Shown piece after piece: positions 15,463 to 21,585 of a DNA stretch of 64,000 nt. The notes under the pieces were generated by a model. That model saw only the letters and a program-made list of their open reading frames with translations. It made no database searches and was not told the DNA's origin. Within the stretch, counting starts at the first letter, position 1. Every line of letters starts with the position of its first letter. The translations under genes and the position numbers were made by a program. This DNA is from Flavihumibacter petaseus NBRC 106054 (GTDB lineage: Bacteria; Bacteroidota; Bacteroidia; Chitinophagales; Chitinophagaceae): contig NZ_BBWV01000007.1 of NCBI RefSeq assembly GCF_000974785.1, positions 1 to 64,000 of the forward strand, in the 5' to 3' direction.

Positions 15463-17736
15463 TTACTCGAATGCATTTTTAAAGGTGATCTCCTGTCCGG
15501 CGGTCATATTGAAGGAAATAATTCCTTTTTCCTCCTGCAGAATGCTGTCCCGGGAAATTCCCTGCTGGATGAATGTGCGGAAAGGCAGGCGAATCCTGAC
15601 TTTTCCGGCTTTCTCCGCCTTGAGCACTACTTCTTGCGGAACACCATTTGTTTTGACCGCATCCACCAGGATAGCGCCCGTGGCTCTGAGCTGGTGAAAG
15701 GAGCAATCCGCCCACGTAGACGGCAATGCAGGGAAAATGTCAATGAATCCCTGCTCTGAGCGGATCAGGAGTTCATGAATGCCTTGTGCAAATGCAAAGT
15801 TTCCCTCAAGCGTAAAAGGCCGGTAAGTAAAATTGGAGTATTGCCCTTTCTTCTGATCACCATTCAGGTGAAAACTGTTGGATGAGCAAAAGTTCTCCGC
15901 AAAAATGTGCAGGTATCGCAAGGCGCTGTCGCCCATTCCGGCGCTGGCATATAGGGACGCCGCCCAGCTGAAAGAGTAGCCACACCAGGCCCGGGTTCCC
16001 AGTTTCTGCAAATTGGCAAATGAGTTTTGCATGATGACTTTATCATCTTGTTTGTCTTTTGACAAAAGCTGGAGCGGATAAATCGCCATCAGGTTGCTGT
16101 GATGCCGGTGAGATTCCTTTAGCGGATAACCAGGAGCAACCGTGAGTCCGCTCGGGTCGGTATCAAGCGGCATAAAACTTTCTCCCTTTTCAAGAAGCTG
16201 CCCGGCAGCTTTGCCGGTTGCTGCTGAGTCCAGTTCTGCGAACCTGCGGTAAAAGTTGTGGATCAGGGCCAGGTCGTAATTGGTTGTTCGCTGGAACCAG
16301 GCATCGATGCTGTTGTCATTGATTTCCGGCGATGCACTGAGGGGCAACTGGCGTTTCCCTTTGTCGTTGGTAATTGCAATTCCATTCAGAAACTGATCAA
16401 TCTGGCGGAAATATGGCAGACAATTTTCCTTCAAAAACTTTTCGTCTCCTGTATAGGCATATTGCTGGTAGAAGTGCTGCGCCAGCCATGCGGAAACGGT
16501 CGGACTCATCGAATACTGGATCCAGCCACCCATTTCTTTTCCATTAAGCGTAGTTACTCCCGGCACATTCAGGCCTTTCGTACCGAAGTAGCGTTCTGTC
16601 CAGTTTTCGTTCACCTTCTTCACCTTAAGCAACCAGTTCGTGAAAGATGCGGTGAGGTCGGTATGATTGGATACATATCCCGGCCAGTAACTCAGCTGGG
16701 TATTCAGGTCATGGTGAAAATCGCCCTTCCAGGGTGGAAGATTGCCGTTGTCCGCTGTCCATACAGCCTGCAGGGAAATGGGAGGCGTGTTGGCCCTGGC
16801 CACTGAACCGAACTTGTACATTTCCAGGTAATACTGTCTGCTCAGGAGGGTGTCAGGGATCTGTACGGAAGACCTATTCCAATAGTCCTGCCACCAGGCA
16901 ATATGCGAAGGCCAGAATGTTGGCTCTTTTGACCGGGTATCTAAGGCCGGAAGGGAGGCTTTTGCATCCACAGTGATTGTCCAGGCACCGATCATACCAT
17001 CTTTACCCATGCGTTGCCATTGCACGAGTACTTCATAATAATGGCCCTTCCAGGTTGGTTGGTGGTACCTGATTTCGCCATTCTTTTTCTGAATTGCCCC
17101 TGCGGCATAACCCAGCTGCTCGAGGCCCTGTCCGTCGACAACCATATTGCCTCCTACGGGAATGTTTTTCTTGTTATATCCGGGAATAATCAGTTGCGGT
17201 GTAACCACAGTACCTGCCGGAAGTTTTTCGAATGCGAAATAGCCTGTCATGCGATCAGCATGTACATAGCTGAGGAAACGGGTACCATTGGGATAAGTTA
17301 ATGTAGCAAGGGCGGTACTGATATCCAGTTCGGCGGTTGCCGTTTTACCGAGGAAGGAACAGTTAAACTCTAGTGCCGCGCCGGGTATTTTGGTGGGAGC
17401 GGGGGAATTGTCATAAGGCACATCACCTACTGACTGAACAGTGTCATAATCCTTTTTCTTCACCTGATCGATCACCCAGCTGAATTTCAGCTGATCGATC
17501 TTGGGCATAGGCCGTTCGTCCCAAAGATCAACGTGGTCAAGTGATAACCTGAGGTTATCACCTTTCTGCCAGACCAATGCACCCATCCAACCATTACCCA
17601 GGGGAAGGGCTTCGTCCCACCGTGCAGGGATATTGTCAAAAATCAGGTTGTGTGAAGGTTTCGGTTGGGCGTTTACGTGAGCAAATGCAAGAAGGGCAGC
17701 AATTGCGGTCACCAGGCATAGCAGCGTTTGTTTCAT
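15463..17736 (-). CDS. Glycoside hydrolase family 95-like protein (alpha-L-fucosidase clan)
   Basis: About 757 residues, signal peptide MKQTLLCLVTAIAALLAFAHVNAQ. I chose the ATG at 17736 because it begins the signal peptide; upstream in-frame starts only add MPPRKMLIFSM. GH95 landmarks: RWDEALPLGNGWMGALVW near the N-terminus (beta-sandwich), AVWTADNGNLPPWKGDFHHD and LSYWPG in the (alpha/alpha)6 barrel, LPLSASPEIND containing the likely acid Glu, and SHRHHSNLMAIYPLQL near the C-terminus. Family members act on terminal alpha-L-fucose or alpha-L-galactose. The motif normally written NxN before the YWP element appears here as DLN, so the first Asn may be replaced by Asp. No SusC/SusD genes or other polysaccharide-utilisation genes are adjacent. 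Probably periplasmic or surface-exposed. Confidence 0.82.
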   Translation of the reverse strand: MKQTLLCLVTAIAALLAFAHVNAQPKPSHNLIFDNIPARWDEALPLGNGWMGALVWQKGDNLRLSLDHVDLWDERPMPKIDQLKFSWVIDQVKKKDYDTVQSVGDVPYDNSPAPTKIPGAALEFNCSFLGKTATAELDISTALATLTYPNGTRFLSYVHADRMTGYFAFEKLPAGTVVTPQLIIPGYNKKNIPVGGNMVVDGQGLEQLGYAAGAIQKKNGEIRYHQPTWKGHYYEVLVQWQRMGKDGMIGAWTITVDAKASLPALDTRSKEPTFWPSHIAWWQDYWNRSSVQIPDTLLSRQYYLEMYKFGSVARANTPPISLQAVWTADNGNLPPWKGDFHHDLNTQLSYWPGYVSNHTDLTASFTNWLLKVKKVNENWTERYFGTKGLNVPGVTTLNGKEMGGWIQYSMSPTVSAWLAQHFYQQYAYTGDEKFLKENCLPYFRQIDQFLNGIAITNDKGKRQLPLSASPEINDNSIDAWFQRTTNYDLALIHNFYRRFAELDSAATGKAAGQLLEKGESFMPLDTDPSGLTVAPGYPLKESHRHHSNLMAIYPLQLLSKDKQDDKVIMQNSFANLQKLGTRAWCGYSFSWAASLYASAGMGDSALRYLHIFAENFCSSNSFHLNGDQKKGQYSNFTYRPFTLEGNFAFAQGIHELLIRSEQGFIDIFPALPSTWADCSFHQLRATGAILVDAVKTNGVPQEVVLKAEKAGKVRIRLPFRTFIQQGISRDSILQEEKGIISFNMTAGQEITFKNAFE

Positions 17737-17863
17737 CATGCTAAAAATCAACATTTTCCGTGGAGGCATCCACTTGATATTTGTTCATTTCTGACTAATA
17801 ATGAACAGGTTGCCATTGACCGGAATTCACTAATTTACCTATTCAAATAACAAATCGCCAATA

Positions 17864-18328
17864 ATGACTGCAGAAGAACGGTTGTTGTCACTCGGGGTGG
17901 AACTTCCACCGGCGCCGATGCCCGTGGGCGTTTATAAACCATTGCTGATCGTCGGAAACCAGGTCTTTGTCTCGGGGCATGGTCCCGTCAGAACTGACAA
18001 AACCCTGATTACGGGAAGGGTAGGAGAGCAGCTTACCAAAGAGGAGGGCAAAATTGCAGCGCGACAGGTCGGACTCACTATATTGGCTACTTTGAGGACC
18101 CAGTTAGGCAGCCTGGACAGGGTTGGCCGGGTGATCAAGGTACTGGGCATGGTAGGGTGTACGCCTGATTTTGGCGAACATCCGTTTGTGATCAACGGGT
18201 GCAGTGAGTTATTTGCAGCCATTTGGGGAGAAGAAAGGGGGATCGGTGTCAGAAGCGCTGTTGGCATGGGTTCACTACCGGGGAATATTCCCGTTGAAAT
18301 AGAAGCGCTGTTTGAATTGAATAGCTAA
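17864..18328 (+). CDS. RidA/YjgF-family enamine/imine deaminase
   Basis: This 154-residue protein belongs to the longer RidA subgroup. RidA proteins hydrolyse reactive enamines and imines such as 2-aminoacrylate released by PLP enzymes. Visible family marks: VFVSGHGPVR at the start of the core, a helix KIAARQVGLTILATLRTQLG, HPFVINGCSELFAAIWG, and the C-terminal RSAVGMGSLPGNIPVEIEAL, whose Arg and Glu match the catalytic Arg and Glu positions of RidA. The stop TAA shares its final A with the ATG of the next gene, a PLP enzyme predicted to act on D-amino acids. That pairing suggests this RidA clears the imine product of its neighbour. A weak -7-like element (taatttac at 17831) with ttg 18 bp upstream may drive the operon. 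Confidence 0.9.
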   Translation: MTAEERLLSLGVELPPAPMPVGVYKPLLIVGNQVFVSGHGPVRTDKTLITGRVGEQLTKEEGKIAARQVGLTILATLRTQLGSLDRVGRVIKVLGMVGCTPDFGEHPFVINGCSELFAAIWGEERGIGVRSAVGMGSLPGNIPVEIEALFELNS

Positions 18329-19440
18329 TGAGCAACTTTGCATTTGACTGGTACATGCTGCAACAACCAGAACTTGTTGCAAGTCCGGCGTTGCTGGTTT
18401 CACCGGAAGTCGTGCGGGACAATATCCGGAAACTGATCGGGATGGCCGGAAGTGCAGAAAAACTTCGTCCGCATGTGAAGACCTGCAAGGCCGCGGAACC
18501 GATAAAACTGATGATTTCAGAGGGGATACGTCAATTCAAGTGTGCCACTATTGCTGAAGCCGAGCTGCTGGCAACTTGTGGCGCCAGCGATATCCTGCTG
18601 GCATACCCGCTGACGGGGCCGGCGATCAGCAGATTTTTACGCCTTCGTGATGAATTTCCGGAAAGTGATTTTTCCTGCCTGGTTGACAATAGTGCGGGTG
18701 CATTGTCTTTAAACGAAGCTGTCAGGACCGGAAATCCTGTTCCTGTATGGATAGACCTGAATGTGGGCATGAACCGGACCGGAATTCTGCCTTCTCATGC
18801 GCGCGCTTTATATGATGAAATAAATGCCATGCAGAGCCTTCAATTCAGGGGACTACACGCTTATGATGGTCATATCCACCAGGACTGGCTTGGCGAGCGG
18901 CAGGAAGCGCTGGCAACGGCTTTCGCGCCGGTCTGGGAATTACGCGCCACCCTTGAAATGCTGGAAGGTGCACCTGTTAAACTGGTTGCAGGCGGAACGC
19001 CATCTTTCCCGTATCACCTCCAGCACAATCACGTGGAATGCAGCCCCGGCACTTTTGTGTATTGGGACCGGGGTTATGAAGGTTTCCAGGAACAACCTTT
19101 CCAACAGGCCGCTGTTTTGCTTTGCCGCATAGTTTCACTTCCTGCTGAAAACAGGATCTGTGTTGATCTCGGCCACAAGGCAGTTGCCGCTGAAAATGAA
19201 CTTAGCCGGCGGGTCACTTTTTTAAATGCCGCCGACCTCAGGCCGGTATCACAGAGTGAAGAGCACCTGGTGCTGGAAATCAATCCAGGCCATGGCTACC
19301 AGGTGGGTGATGTTTTGTATGGAGTTCCGTATCATATATGCCCTACTGTTGCTTTGCATGAATCGGCAGTCTGCGTTCATGAAGGCATTCCGGCAGGGGA
19401 GTGGCTGACGGTGGCCAGAAAACGAAAAATCAGTATCTGA
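18328..19440 (+). CDS. DSD1-type PLP enzyme (D-serine dehydratase / D-threonine aldolase-like)
   Basis: A 370-residue fold-type III PLP enzyme (alanine-racemase-like barrel plus C-terminal domain). RPHVKTCK near residue 50 holds the PLP lysine. GDVLYGVPYHICPTVALHE near the C-terminus has the His and Cys that bind zinc in D-serine dehydratase and a metal in D-threonine aldolase. The reaction is either D-Ser to pyruvate and ammonia through 2-aminoacrylate, or D-Thr to Gly and acetaldehyde; the sequence alone does not decide. The upstream RidA favours a dehydratase. The frame overlaps upstream by 1 base and is followed after 5 bases by an M19 dipeptidase. Confidence 0.85.
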   Translation: MSNFAFDWYMLQQPELVASPALLVSPEVVRDNIRKLIGMAGSAEKLRPHVKTCKAAEPIKLMISEGIRQFKCATIAEAELLATCGASDILLAYPLTGPAISRFLRLRDEFPESDFSCLVDNSAGALSLNEAVRTGNPVPVWIDLNVGMNRTGILPSHARALYDEINAMQSLQFRGLHAYDGHIHQDWLGERQEALATAFAPVWELRATLEMLEGAPVKLVAGGTPSFPYHLQHNHVECSPGTFVYWDRGYEGFQEQPFQQAAVLLCRIVSLPAENRICVDLGHKAVAAENELSRRVTFLNAADLRPVSQSEEHLVLEINPGHGYQVGDVLYGVPYHICPTVALHESAVCVHEGIPAGEWLTVARKRKISI

Positions 19441-19445
19441 AACAG

Positions 19446-20528
19446 ATGTTTTTGATAGACGCTCATCTTGACCTGGCCATGAATGCGCTGGAGTGGAACC
19501 GGGATCTGAGGCTTCCCGTGAACAAGATCAATGAAAGAGAGGAGGGGTTAAGCGACAAACCGGATCGCGGGAAGGCGACCGTATCCCTTCCGGAGTTGAG
19601 AAAAGGAGGTGTGGCACTGGTGGTTGCTACCCAGATCGGCAGGTATGTGGCTCCCGGTAACCCGCTATCCGGCTGGCATTCGCCGGAACAGGCCTGGGCT
19701 CAGACACAGGGACAGCTCGCATGGTATAAAGCCATGGAAGCGGCCGGAGAAATGCGGATGATAACGGATTTGGTTACACTGGATGCACATTTACTGGAAT
19801 GGACACAAACCACAGCAACGGAATCATTGCCGGTTGGATATATCCTTAGCCTGGAAGGTGCCGATTCTCTGATTGATGTCAGTTACCTGGAAAAAGCCTG
19901 GCAATATGGATTGCGGGCAGTAGGCCCGGCCCATTATGGGCCAGGCCGTTATGCACCGGGTACAGATGCCACCGGTCCGCTGGAAAAGGATGGCCCGGCA
20001 TTGCTCAGGGAAATGGAACGCCTGAATATGATCCTTGACGCCACGCATCTCTGCGACGAAAGTTTTTGGGAAGCGTTGTCCATATTTCATGGAAGCATCT
20101 GGGCCAGCCACAACAATTGCCGTGCATTGGTAGATCATAACCGCCAATACAGCGACGAACAAATCAAAGCACTGATCGAAAAGAATGCGGTGATCGGAGG
20201 CGCACTCGATGCCTGGATGATGGTGCCAGGCTGGGAGCGTGGGAAATCTACGCCACAGGCGATGAACTGTAATATAGACAGCATGATCGACCACATCGTA
20301 CACATTTGTTCCATTGCAGGGAACAGCTTGCATGTAGGGATCGGCTCTGATCTTGATGGTGCATTCGGCAGGGAGCAATGCCCTTATGACCTGGAAACAA
20401 TAGCCGATCTGAATAAACTGGCCGGCCTGCTCAGCAAACGGAATTTCACTGAAACAGATATTGACAACATACTGAGGGGAAACTGGCTGCGCTTCCTGCG
20501 GGAGACCTGGGCTAGTCCTCAAACTTAA
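19446..20528 (+). CDS. Membrane-dipeptidase family zinc peptidase (M19)
   Basis: 360 residues starting at ATG 19446 (MFLIDAHLDLAMN); in-frame codons upstream overlap the previous gene and are unlikely to be used. M19 metal ligands are visible: DAHLDL (His and Asp), SLEGAD (Glu), then the His residues in ILDATHLCDE and WASHNNCRALVDHNR, and IGSDLDGAFG near the end. No signal peptide is seen, so it is probably cytoplasmic. M19 enzymes cleave dipeptides and tolerate a D-residue at the C-terminal position. Together with the RidA and DSD1 genes it suggests release and breakdown of D-amino acids, for instance from peptidoglycan peptides; that is inference. It is probably the third gene of this operon. 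Confidence 0.9.
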   Translation: MFLIDAHLDLAMNALEWNRDLRLPVNKINEREEGLSDKPDRGKATVSLPELRKGGVALVVATQIGRYVAPGNPLSGWHSPEQAWAQTQGQLAWYKAMEAAGEMRMITDLVTLDAHLLEWTQTTATESLPVGYILSLEGADSLIDVSYLEKAWQYGLRAVGPAHYGPGRYAPGTDATGPLEKDGPALLREMERLNMILDATHLCDESFWEALSIFHGSIWASHNNCRALVDHNRQYSDEQIKALIEKNAVIGGALDAWMMVPGWERGKSTPQAMNCNIDSMIDHIVHICSIAGNSLHVGIGSDLDGAFGREQCPYDLETIADLNKLAGLLSKRNFTETDIDNILRGNWLRFLRETWASPQT

Positions 20529-20538
20529 ATGCCAACAC

Positions 20539-21585
20539 ATGCCAACCAGCTTCCACGACCGGCTGCGCCAACTCTCCTTACTGGCCATTATCCTGTTGCT
20601 TATCTTCCTGCTGTTTCATTCACTGAGCGTATTTCTTCCCGGAATACTGGGGGCTGTAACACTCTACATTCTCAGCAGGAAAAGATATTTCCATCTGATT
20701 ATGATTGAAAAGTGGCGGAAGGGGTGGACTGCCGGATTATTTTTATTATTCTACCTGATCATCCTTGGTGTTCCCATTTATATCGTTATTGCGTTGCTTC
20801 AGCCGAAAGTTCATGAATTCCTGACTAACCCGCAACAGTATGTCGACATGTTCAAAAATGCCGTCGAAACAATAGAAAAACGGTACAATTATGATGTGAT
20901 GGGCCCCAATACCCTCAATGCAATATTTGAAAAGATCTCCACGATTGTTCCCAGGCTGCTGAACAGCACCACCAATATCCTGTTCAATCTTGCGATCATG
21001 CTTTTTTTGCTTTATTACCTGTTGATCAACGGGCAGGAGATTGAAAAATACAGTCGTAAAATAACACCGCTGAAAGCCCGGAACATCGACTTGCTGGTTA
21101 CAGAAACACAAAACAACATTAAAGCCAATGCAATCGGGATTCCCCTGATTTCCATCATCCAGGGCATGACTGCCATGCTGGGTTATTATATTTTTGGCGT
21201 GCCTGAATTTGCCATCTGGGGCGTACTTACCGGTCTGTTTGCTTTTTTCCCGATGGTAGGTACTATGATCATCTGGGTGCCGGTTGTAGTTTTCATGTAT
21301 GCAAGCGGAGAAACCTGGCCGGCAACGGGGGTATTGCTATACAGCCTGCTCGTTACCGGAAATGTGGACACACTGGCCAGAATGACGCTGCTGAAAAGAA
21401 TCGGCAATGTTCATCCTGTCGTGACCATTCTGGGTGTGATTTCCGGGTTGAGTCTGTTTGGCTTTATCGGGCTGATTTTCGGGCCGTTGCTGATTAACTA
21501 CATCATTGTATTGTTTCAGATCTACTTAAATGAATTCGTGCCGGGATTTGAAGATGAAGACGTTACAGATAAAGTCAGCCATTGA
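20539..21585 (+). CDS. AI-2E family (PerM-like) membrane permease
   Basis: 348 residues with the AI-2E transporter layout: two N-terminal helices (SLLAIILLLIFLLFHSL, then a short second one), a third at about residues 67-90, a soluble region (KVHEFLTNPQQYVDMFKNAV), and five C-terminal helices. FAIWGVLTGLFAFFPMVGTM and GFIGLIFGPLLINYIIVLF are typical of the family. Members export or exchange small molecules or ions; substrates vary and the family name should not be read as proof of autoinducer export. The start lies 10 bp after the dipeptidase stop, so it may be cotranscribed. Confidence 0.85.
   Translation: MPTSFHDRLRQLSLLAIILLLIFLLFHSLSVFLPGILGAVTLYILSRKRYFHLIMIEKWRKGWTAGLFLLFYLIILGVPIYIVIALLQPKVHEFLTNPQQYVDMFKNAVETIEKRYNYDVMGPNTLNAIFEKISTIVPRLLNSTTNILFNLAIMLFLLYYLLINGQEIEKYSRKITPLKARNIDLLVTETQNNIKANAIGIPLISIIQGMTAMLGYYIFGVPEFAIWGVLTGLFAFFPMVGTMIIWVPVVVFMYASGETWPATGVLLYSLLVTGNVDTLARMTLLKRIGNVHPVVTILGVISGLSLFGFIGLIFGPLLINYIIVLFQIYLNEFVPGFEDEDVTDKVSH

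Follow-up and report, generated by a model that had tools for sequence, protein, structure and literature searches.

Three tightly packed genes in the first 64,000 nucleotides of contig NZ_BBWV01000007.1 of Flavihumibacter petaseus NBRC 106054 (this whole stretch is called the window below) raise the question of what a RidA-family protein, a pyridoxal phosphate (PLP)-dependent enzyme of the DSD1/D-threonine aldolase (D-TA) family and an M19-family metallohydrolase degrade together. An earlier note on this DNA had proposed a salvage pathway for D-amino acids, in which the M19 enzyme would cleave dipeptides ending in D-Ser, the PLP enzyme would convert D-Ser into 2-aminoacrylate and the Rid protein would hydrolyze this enamine. 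A comparison of the locus with its relatives retained much of this chemistry and pointed to another substrate. We consider it somewhat likelier to be true than false that the trio forms the central part of an operon with which Bacteroidota degrade D-2-amino-3-hydroxy acids, most likely N-acyl- or N-acetyl-D-glucosaminate or a close amino-aldonate.

Conservation of the gene trio in Bacteroidota

As the earlier note had stated, the three genes overlap or lie within 5 bp of each other: the Rid and PLP enzyme genes have one base in common (position 18328), and 5 bp separate the PLP enzyme gene from the M19 gene. The length of the latter (Table 1) is counted from a conserved ATG, the mechanical open reading frame (ORF) beginning at the GTG at 19401. 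The arrangement was followed in a set of named loci, the best 80 of 573 confirmed ones, which is biased to near relatives. A Rid gene was located upstream of the PLP enzyme gene in 66 of 77 named loci and an M19 gene downstream of it in 61 of 74, while the full trio, in the same order and on the same strand, was present in 55 of the 71 loci readable on both sides. A GntP permease gene was found further upstream in 32 of the 67 loci with enough sequence. Within the order to which the window belongs, the PLP enzyme gene was detected at E up to 1e-30 in 30 of 198 genomes, and all three genes lay within the 1.5-kb flanks in 12 of the 29 genomes other than that of the window. The latter shares family f1 with G195, whose PLP enzyme shows zero distance to that of Ilyomonas limi, so that this family is probably Chitinophagaceae.

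PF14031 was present in 151 of the 395 genomes sampled from the whole phylum. Reading 138 places in this sample gave 27 loci in the clade of the operon enzyme (profile score over 400) and 111 outside it. Among the clade loci, 17 had Rid1, 17 had M19, 16 had both and 11 had GntP, whereas outside the clade Rid1 was found in none and a more distant M19 in nine. This difference in the Rid1 partner (17/27 vs 0/111; Fisher test, 3.5e-15) does not discount relatedness, and as Rid1 rows were the basis of the Rid profile, canonical RidA neighbors outside the clade could be missed. The trio is also carried by annotated records of Hymenobacter volaticus and Parabacteroides distasonis, the latter with the genes for GntP, one protein with a domain of unknown function, RidA, a ‘D-TA’ enzyme and a dipeptidase. 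A search of plasmid records gave 426 matches, of which five were examined; both Bacteroidota records carry the trio, and those of Phaeobacter, Nitratireductor and Bradyrhizobium hold relatives at about 30% in other clusters. The gene order, on whose presence beyond this one species the earlier note had made its proposal depend, is thus widely conserved, and the trio is a real Bacteroidota operon and not a chance arrangement.

The PLP enzyme has a dehydratase-type metal site

The PLP enzyme contains the domains PF01168 and PF14031, the latter with 66 bits against a cut-off of 22, and its AlphaFold model (pLDDT 91) matches D-TA, BhcC, chicken D-serine dehydratase (DSD) and D-threo-3-hydroxyaspartate (D-THA) dehydratase with VIA Z scores of 35-38.5. 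Since the fold matches both classes, it leaves the choice between aldolase and dehydratase undecided, and it is the metal site that decides. In D-TA aldolases the metal is bound by His and Asp, with His193 as the proposed base, whereas dehydratases use His and Cys (PMC4401734). In the alignment of the operon enzymes, the PLP lysine K51, H336 and C338 were each present in 81 of 81 rows, and the His-x-Cys site recurred in all 127 other clade members; the His-x-Asp site of D-threonine aldolase is absent. At position 185, which is aligned with His193, only 4 of 81 rows have His and the enzyme of the window has Gln. At the adjoining position 184, Arg occurs in 47 of the 81 rows and His in 32, among them that of the window; an alignment with BhcC likewise places a His there.

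The dehydratase-type site makes an enamine product likely, which agrees with the DSD1-type activity originally proposed. The name ‘D-TA family’ given by the NCBI annotation pipeline PGAP is probably misleading, because the metal site is His-x-Cys. Zn-dependent D-serine dehydratases of the DSD1 type (yeast Dsd1p; chicken DSD, 3anu) have the same PF01168 and PF14031 domains, PLP lysine and His-x-Cys motif, the chicken enzyme being about 26% identical to that of the window in a structural alignment. With the metal site and the deaminase arginine of the Rid protein, dehydration followed by enamine clean-up is a well-supported prediction for the PLP enzyme and its Rid partner, and the predicted activity of the PLP enzyme is that of a D-glucosaminate (and D-Ser/D-Thr) ammonia-lyase. 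The clade is marked by Asp180, found in 127 of 127 members and in 11 of 111 proteins outside it. The metal motif was also tried as a means of telling Rid-linked genes from unlinked ones and was uninformative inside Bacteroidota, as 110 of the 111 outside proteins have His-x-Cys.

The Rid protein is of the Rid1 type

The Rid protein of the operon matches PF14588 (8.6e-17) and PF01042 (1.1e-6), and its nearest solved relatives are 3d01 and then PA0814 (9bk9, 4.9e-19), with ACIAD3089 (9bkb, 6.2e-12) in fourth place. It scores 23 bits to TIGR00004 (Rid family detoxifying hydrolase), whose cut-off is 106. By sequence it is of the Rid1 type, nearer to PA0814 and ACIAD3089 than to RidA, and it shares the PF14588 type and the catalytic arginine with that subfamily. 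This residue, Arg130, is kept in 69 of 69 rows and is placed by the alignment on the deaminase arginine (RidA Arg105), on which the activity of Rid proteins depends (PMC4433059, PMC5619798). Since Rid1 proteins deaminate 2-aminoacrylate in vitro (PMC5619798), the clean-up role assigned to Rid in the earlier proposal remains well founded. Two further Rid genes of the genome match PF01042 with 139 and 105 bits, compared with 27 bits for the operon Rid, which is thus an extra copy. PMC4433059 describes clusters of Rid1 genes with a number of PLP enzymes and gives the substrates of Rid1-3 in vivo as unknown. Enzymes of the alanine-racemase fold acting on D-amino acids are not among the partners named in the part of that paper available to us, whereas such a partner is present here.

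The M19 protein

The M19 protein matches PF01244 with 1.5e-45 and 156 bits (cut-off 26), and in a comparison within the genome it scores 158 bits against 340 for the second M19. An NCBIfam scan gave no match for the operon protein, and no signal peptide was evident on inspection by eye, no predictor being run. Residues H7, D9 and E137 are the same in 65 of 65 rows, H201 in 62 of 62, and H222 and D302 in 61 of 61 each. E137, H201, H222 and D302 were seen aligned with what we take to be the binuclear ligand set of the family (H, D, E, H, H, D), while H7 and D9 were placed from the conserved start. The closest structures are 3fdg (VIA Z 38.9, root-mean-square deviation 2.4 over 318 residues) and 3ly0 (38.6); the lowest-scoring M19 chain is at 34.6, followed by phosphotriesterase as the next fold at 16.9. 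The protein thus has the fold and the presumed metal ligands of renal and membrane dipeptidases, but it differs from them in the weaker Pfam match, the missing NCBIfam match and the sugar-acid context in some relatives. In loci without M19, no deacetylase emerged as a replacement among the neighbors scanned, which included an inositol-phosphate synthase (L062), a tetratricopeptide repeat protein (L104) and molybdopterin genes (L061).

Six of 13 fetched M19 loci (L336, L337, L339, L344, L345, L346) have a Rid gene nearby, and no DSD-type match was seen in the ORFs shown for them; L344 is a contig of 4.8 kb on which Rid1 lies directly before M19. L336 encodes a pyrroloquinoline quinone (PQQ) dehydrogenase, a 2-keto-3-deoxy-galactonokinase, a 2-keto-3-deoxy-6-phosphogluconate (KDPG) aldolase, an MFS permease, a 3HCDH-type dehydrogenase, M19, FecR, a TonB receptor and RidA. 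Judged by gene lengths and BLAST, L337 is laid out in the same way; the families were scanned mainly in L336. Both are possibly loci for galactosaminate utilization.

A second type of cluster combines M19 with 3HCDH-type dehydrogenases and a class-III aminotransferase similar to glutamate-semialdehyde aminomutase (L036, L044, L047, L339, L346), together with a neutral-ceramidase-like protein in all of them except L339. A DSD-type gene occurs in L036, L044 and L047. A canonical RidA was identified in L036 by Pfam, in L044 by membership of the same cluster and in L339 and L346 by BLAST, but not in L047.

Sugar-acid genes around the operon in relatives

In genome G391 (locus L240), the operon comprises GntP, Rid1, a PfkB kinase, a KDPG aldolase, the PLP enzyme and M19. 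Beside it lie the divergently oriented gene of a DeoR regulator and that of a hexosaminidase of glycoside hydrolase (GH) family 20. This layout is common to five genomes of one genus (G391, G505, G360, G468, G430), the families having been checked in L240, and for the kinase also in L242, and the rest by tblastn. Four other genomes of this genus keep DeoR and GH20 and lack the kinase and aldolase. Elsewhere, L065 has the kinase and L077 both kinase and aldolase on the strand of the operon, the contig of L077 ending before any Rid gene; in L082 both genes lie just downstream on the opposite strand. GH20 adjoins the trio in four loci, two each from Flectobacillus and Pedobacter (L122, L129, L130, L133). 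In L091 a glucose-methanol-choline oxidoreductase and gluconate-2-dehydrogenase subunit 3 precede GntP, and L113 is arranged likewise by clustering. Outside these counts, a GH20-like gene with 36% identity to that of L240 was observed three genes past the trio in L347 (G881, family f23).

In the phylum sample, sugar-acid genes accompany 9 of the 27 clade loci and 0 of the 111 outside (Fisher test, 1.2e-7), although all nine belong to one genus and therefore do not represent nine events. A 2-keto-3-deoxygluconate (KDG)-type kinase is found in 5 of the 27, and no locus outside the clade passes the thresholds for any of these genes. Five changes of the kinase/aldolase label are required on a quick tree, with at least three of them forced by starred branches; the count takes in only the other rows with a label, 106 rows having none.

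The two operon GntP proteins tested reach 503 and 510 bits to the gluconate symporter model TIGR00791, over its cut-off, and 225 and 262 bits to that of DsdX, below its cut-off of 618. An import of D-Ser, suggested by the kinship of GntP and DsdX, was accordingly rejected. GntP is present in 8 of 20 loci of the window's order. KDPG aldolases and GntP genes are also encoded elsewhere in the genome of the window, but its own GntP genes, C21 and C22, do not closely resemble those of the operon type (best matches 43-45% and 28-32% identity). C21 adjoins an FGGY kinase and probably serves ordinary gluconate uptake.

Comparison with the ong pathway and a proposed route

A similar combination is described for ong, the oxidative chitin utilization cluster of Pseudoalteromonas prydzensis ACAM 620, which is reported from Gammaproteobacteria and one betaproteobacterium (PMC9537276). 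There, OngB deacetylates N-acetyl-D-glucosaminate (GlcNAc1A), the fold-type III PLP enzyme OngC converts the resulting D-glucosaminate (GlcN1A) into KDG by deamination and accepts D-Ser and D-Thr as well, and KdgK phosphorylates KDG. The RidA protein OngD is essential, its role being given as unknown, and deletion of ongB, ongC, ongD or kdgK abolishes growth on GlcNAc1A (PMC9537276). OngB itself is a D-aminoacylase-like amidohydrolase (PMC12017989).

The Bacteroidota operon shares with ong the fold-type III PLP deaminase, the RidA protein and an amide hydrolase, and in some relatives also the kinase, KDPG aldolase and GH20. It differs in having M19 instead of the D-aminoacylase-like OngB, in the use of GntP in relatives instead of the sodium:solute symporter OngIT, in DeoR (nine genomes of one genus) instead of an RpiR regulator, in a Rid1-type protein instead of a 127-amino acid RidA-domain protein, and in its occurrence in Bacteroidota. 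The window itself contains the ong-type pair of PLP deaminase and RidA protein but no ong-type KDG kinase, and no OngB-type gene was seen among the neighbors scanned, M19 being found in its place. Genome-wide, PF07969, which we take to be the D-aminoacylase family, matched weakly in G391 (2.8e-12), G468 (1.7e-15) and G430 (1.9e-15) and strongly in 7 of 10 genomes, including G000.

Since the order is conserved and the sugar-acid neighbors in relatives match the ong set, an amino-sugar acid is favored over D-Ser dipeptides as the substrate. By analogy, the operon most likely works like the gammaproteobacterial pathway, with M19 replacing OngB and GntP replacing OngIT; the logic of the pathway would be that of ong, and the role of M19 would be new. 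In the proposed route, GntP would be the likely importer in many relatives, and M19, predicted to be an amide hydrolase or deacetylase of an N-acylated amino acid (the role of OngB) or else a dipeptidase, would free the amino group. The PLP/metal enzyme would then remove the β-hydroxyl, as its His-x-Cys site suggests, and the Rid1 protein would hydrolyze the enamine or imine, an activity known for its relatives. The 2-keto-3-deoxy acid would finally pass to KDG kinase and KDPG aldolase, which are part of the operon in some relatives, while aldolases are encoded elsewhere in the present genome.

A further proposal, which we hold tentatively and expect to fail rather sooner than to stand, is that this is a Bacteroidota-specific and so far unrecognized route for N-acetylated amino-aldonates from oxidized chitin ends or other oxidized hexosamines. 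M19 would then act as a carbohydrate de-N-acetylase, the ‘D-threonine aldolase’ as a D-glucosaminate ammonia-lyase and Rid1 as a dedicated imine hydrolase, and M19 would also serve a sister route of the galactosaminate type with a periplasmic PQQ dehydrogenase.

Alternative explanations and contrary evidence

A dipeptide pathway, with M19 cleaving off a C-terminal D-Ser (or D-Thr), the PLP enzyme serving as D-serine/D-threonine dehydratase and Rid1 disposing of 2-aminoacrylate, is in our view unlikely. The His-x-Cys dehydratase site, the action of Rid1 proteins on 2-aminoacrylate (PMC5619798), the family that GntP shares with DsdX, the M19 fold, with structures holding L-Ala-D-Ala mimics among the nearest, and the Pro94 that the window enzyme has in common with most general DSD relatives are all consistent with it. 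However, the operon of some relatives includes sugar-acid genes, the two tested GntP proteins score far better as gluconate symporters than as DsdX, and in two genomes M19 without the PLP gene lies with keto-deoxy-aldonate genes. The salvage pathway of the earlier note is therefore kept as regards the conserved order, the dehydratase site and the Rid1 arginine, but not as regards D-Ser dipeptides as natural substrates, as the extra operon genes (KDG-type kinase, KDPG aldolase, GntP, GH20, gluconate-2-dehydrogenase subunit) tend to aldonates and amino sugars. D-Ser may be a side substrate, as it is for OngC.

Renal dipeptidase has dehydropeptidase activity, and M19 might likewise release enamines from dehydroamino-acid peptides, with Rid serving M19 and the PLP enzyme as a parallel source of the same intermediate. 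The six of 13 M19 loci with a Rid but no PLP gene keep this explanation alive, yet it appears improbable, since L339 and L346 contain another PLP enzyme, the class-III aminotransferase (BLAST), and sugar-acid genes surround M19 in L336 and L337. We regard it as very improbable that the PLP enzyme acts as an aldolase on D-threonine or 3-hydroxyaspartate and forms no enamine, with the Rid gene as a passenger. D-TA and BhcC are among the closest fold matches (Z 38-38.5), the PGAP name says ‘D-TA family’, and the window and 32 of 81 rows in all have His at position 184, as does the BhcC alignment; on the other hand, aldolases bind their metal by His and Asp and use His193 as base (PMC4401734), whereas Cys338 is invariant here, position 185 is rarely His and position 184 is most often Arg.

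Several observations weigh against an amino-sugar acid as the substrate. The kinase occurs in only 3 of the 80 named loci, the aldolase in 2 and GH20 in 4, and the nine phylum-sample loci with sugar-acid genes come from a single genus. Relatives of the L240 kinase, aldolase, GH20 and GntP are absent from the 64-kb window (tblastn, 1e-3), and kinase, aldolase and GH20 occur in 0 of 20 loci of the window's order (9.8-16.5 kb; 20 of 29 found). The L240 kinase (180 bits to the best KDG-kinase model, cut-off 440) and aldolase (150.0 bits to eda, cut-off 156.05) are below the NCBIfam cut-offs, and KDG is thus the likeliest but not the proven substrate. A KDPG aldolase (E up to 1e-25) lies beside 2 of 29 M19 places of the class sample, both without the PLP gene. 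M19 relatives have been solved with L-Ala-D-Ala-type mimics, which fits a dipeptidase, and we know of no M19 enzyme that is a deacetylase. Among the matches listed in the open-licence PMC literature, we found neither a recognized account of the operon nor biochemistry on these proteins. An AA10 lytic polysaccharide monooxygenase (LPMO) was detected in 0 of 10 genomes tested, five of which have the full operon; LPMO was hence rejected as the source of the substrate, and the amino-aldonate would come from elsewhere rather than from self-made oxidized chitin.

In addition, nine residues conserved in at least 85% of the clade are replaced in the PLP enzyme of the window. One of them is Gln at position 94, the other mark of the clade, which is found in 122 of 127 members; the window enzyme has Pro instead, as do 91 of the 111 relatives outside the clade. 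This enzyme lies on a long branch (1.07) in the quick tree and is about 50% alike to its relatives, compared with about 70% for its two operon partners. Pro94, the nine departures and the long branch suggest that it may act on a substrate closer to D-Ser than its relatives do, and the window copy may have drifted towards another substrate.

Gene context of the operon

The AI-2E family transporter gene starts 10 bp past the M19 stop codon and is possibly co-transcribed with the trio, apparently as one transcription unit. In neighbor clustering it formed a cluster of its own, and it was not seen beside the trio in 20 loci of the window's order. A consensus promoter scan of the gap before the operon gave 10 promoter-like sites, compared with 6.8 (standard deviation 3.0) in shuffles; as the promoter/terminator scan is near shuffle level, these sites say little.

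Table 1. Coordinates of the operon genes and their surroundings in the window
Feature	Position	Strand	Length	Characteristics
GH95 gene	15463-17769	-		divergent, upstream of operon
Gap between divergent GH95 gene and operon	17770-17863	.	94 bp	presumed promoter region
Rid1-like RidA-family gene	17864-18328	+	154 aa	PF14588, PF01042, Arg130
DSD1/D-TA-family fold-type III PLP enzyme gene	18328-19440	+	370 aa	PF01168, PF14031, His336-x-Cys338
M19-family metallohydrolase gene	19446-20528	+	360 aa	PF01244, presumed metal ligands
AI-2E family transporter gene	20539-21585	+		PF01594 (1.4e-38)

In Mucilaginibacter loci, including L055, a conserved 362-amino acid protein without Pfam match is encoded immediately before Rid1 and in many cases follows a PAP2 protein; L055 and other loci of this genus have a GH63/MGH1-like protein downstream of M19 and no GntP. 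In L141, on plasmid pP128_c of Phaeobacter gallaeciensis, an RpiR regulator, a TRAP transporter, an M81 metallopeptidase, a His-x-Cys ‘D-TA’ enzyme, a sugar kinase and RidA are encoded together, the same logic as in the operon with another peptidase family (M81) in the hydrolase slot.

Implications

If the amino-sugar-acid function proposed here is correct, many Bacteroidota proteins annotated as ‘D-TA family’ and ‘membrane dipeptidase’ would belong to amino-sugar-acid catabolism, and M19 would gain a new substrate class. The function of Rid1 proteins, and of the essential OngD, in such pathways would become directly testable. An ong-like pathway would then extend to Bacteroidota of several orders, including the gut species Parabacteroides distasonis.

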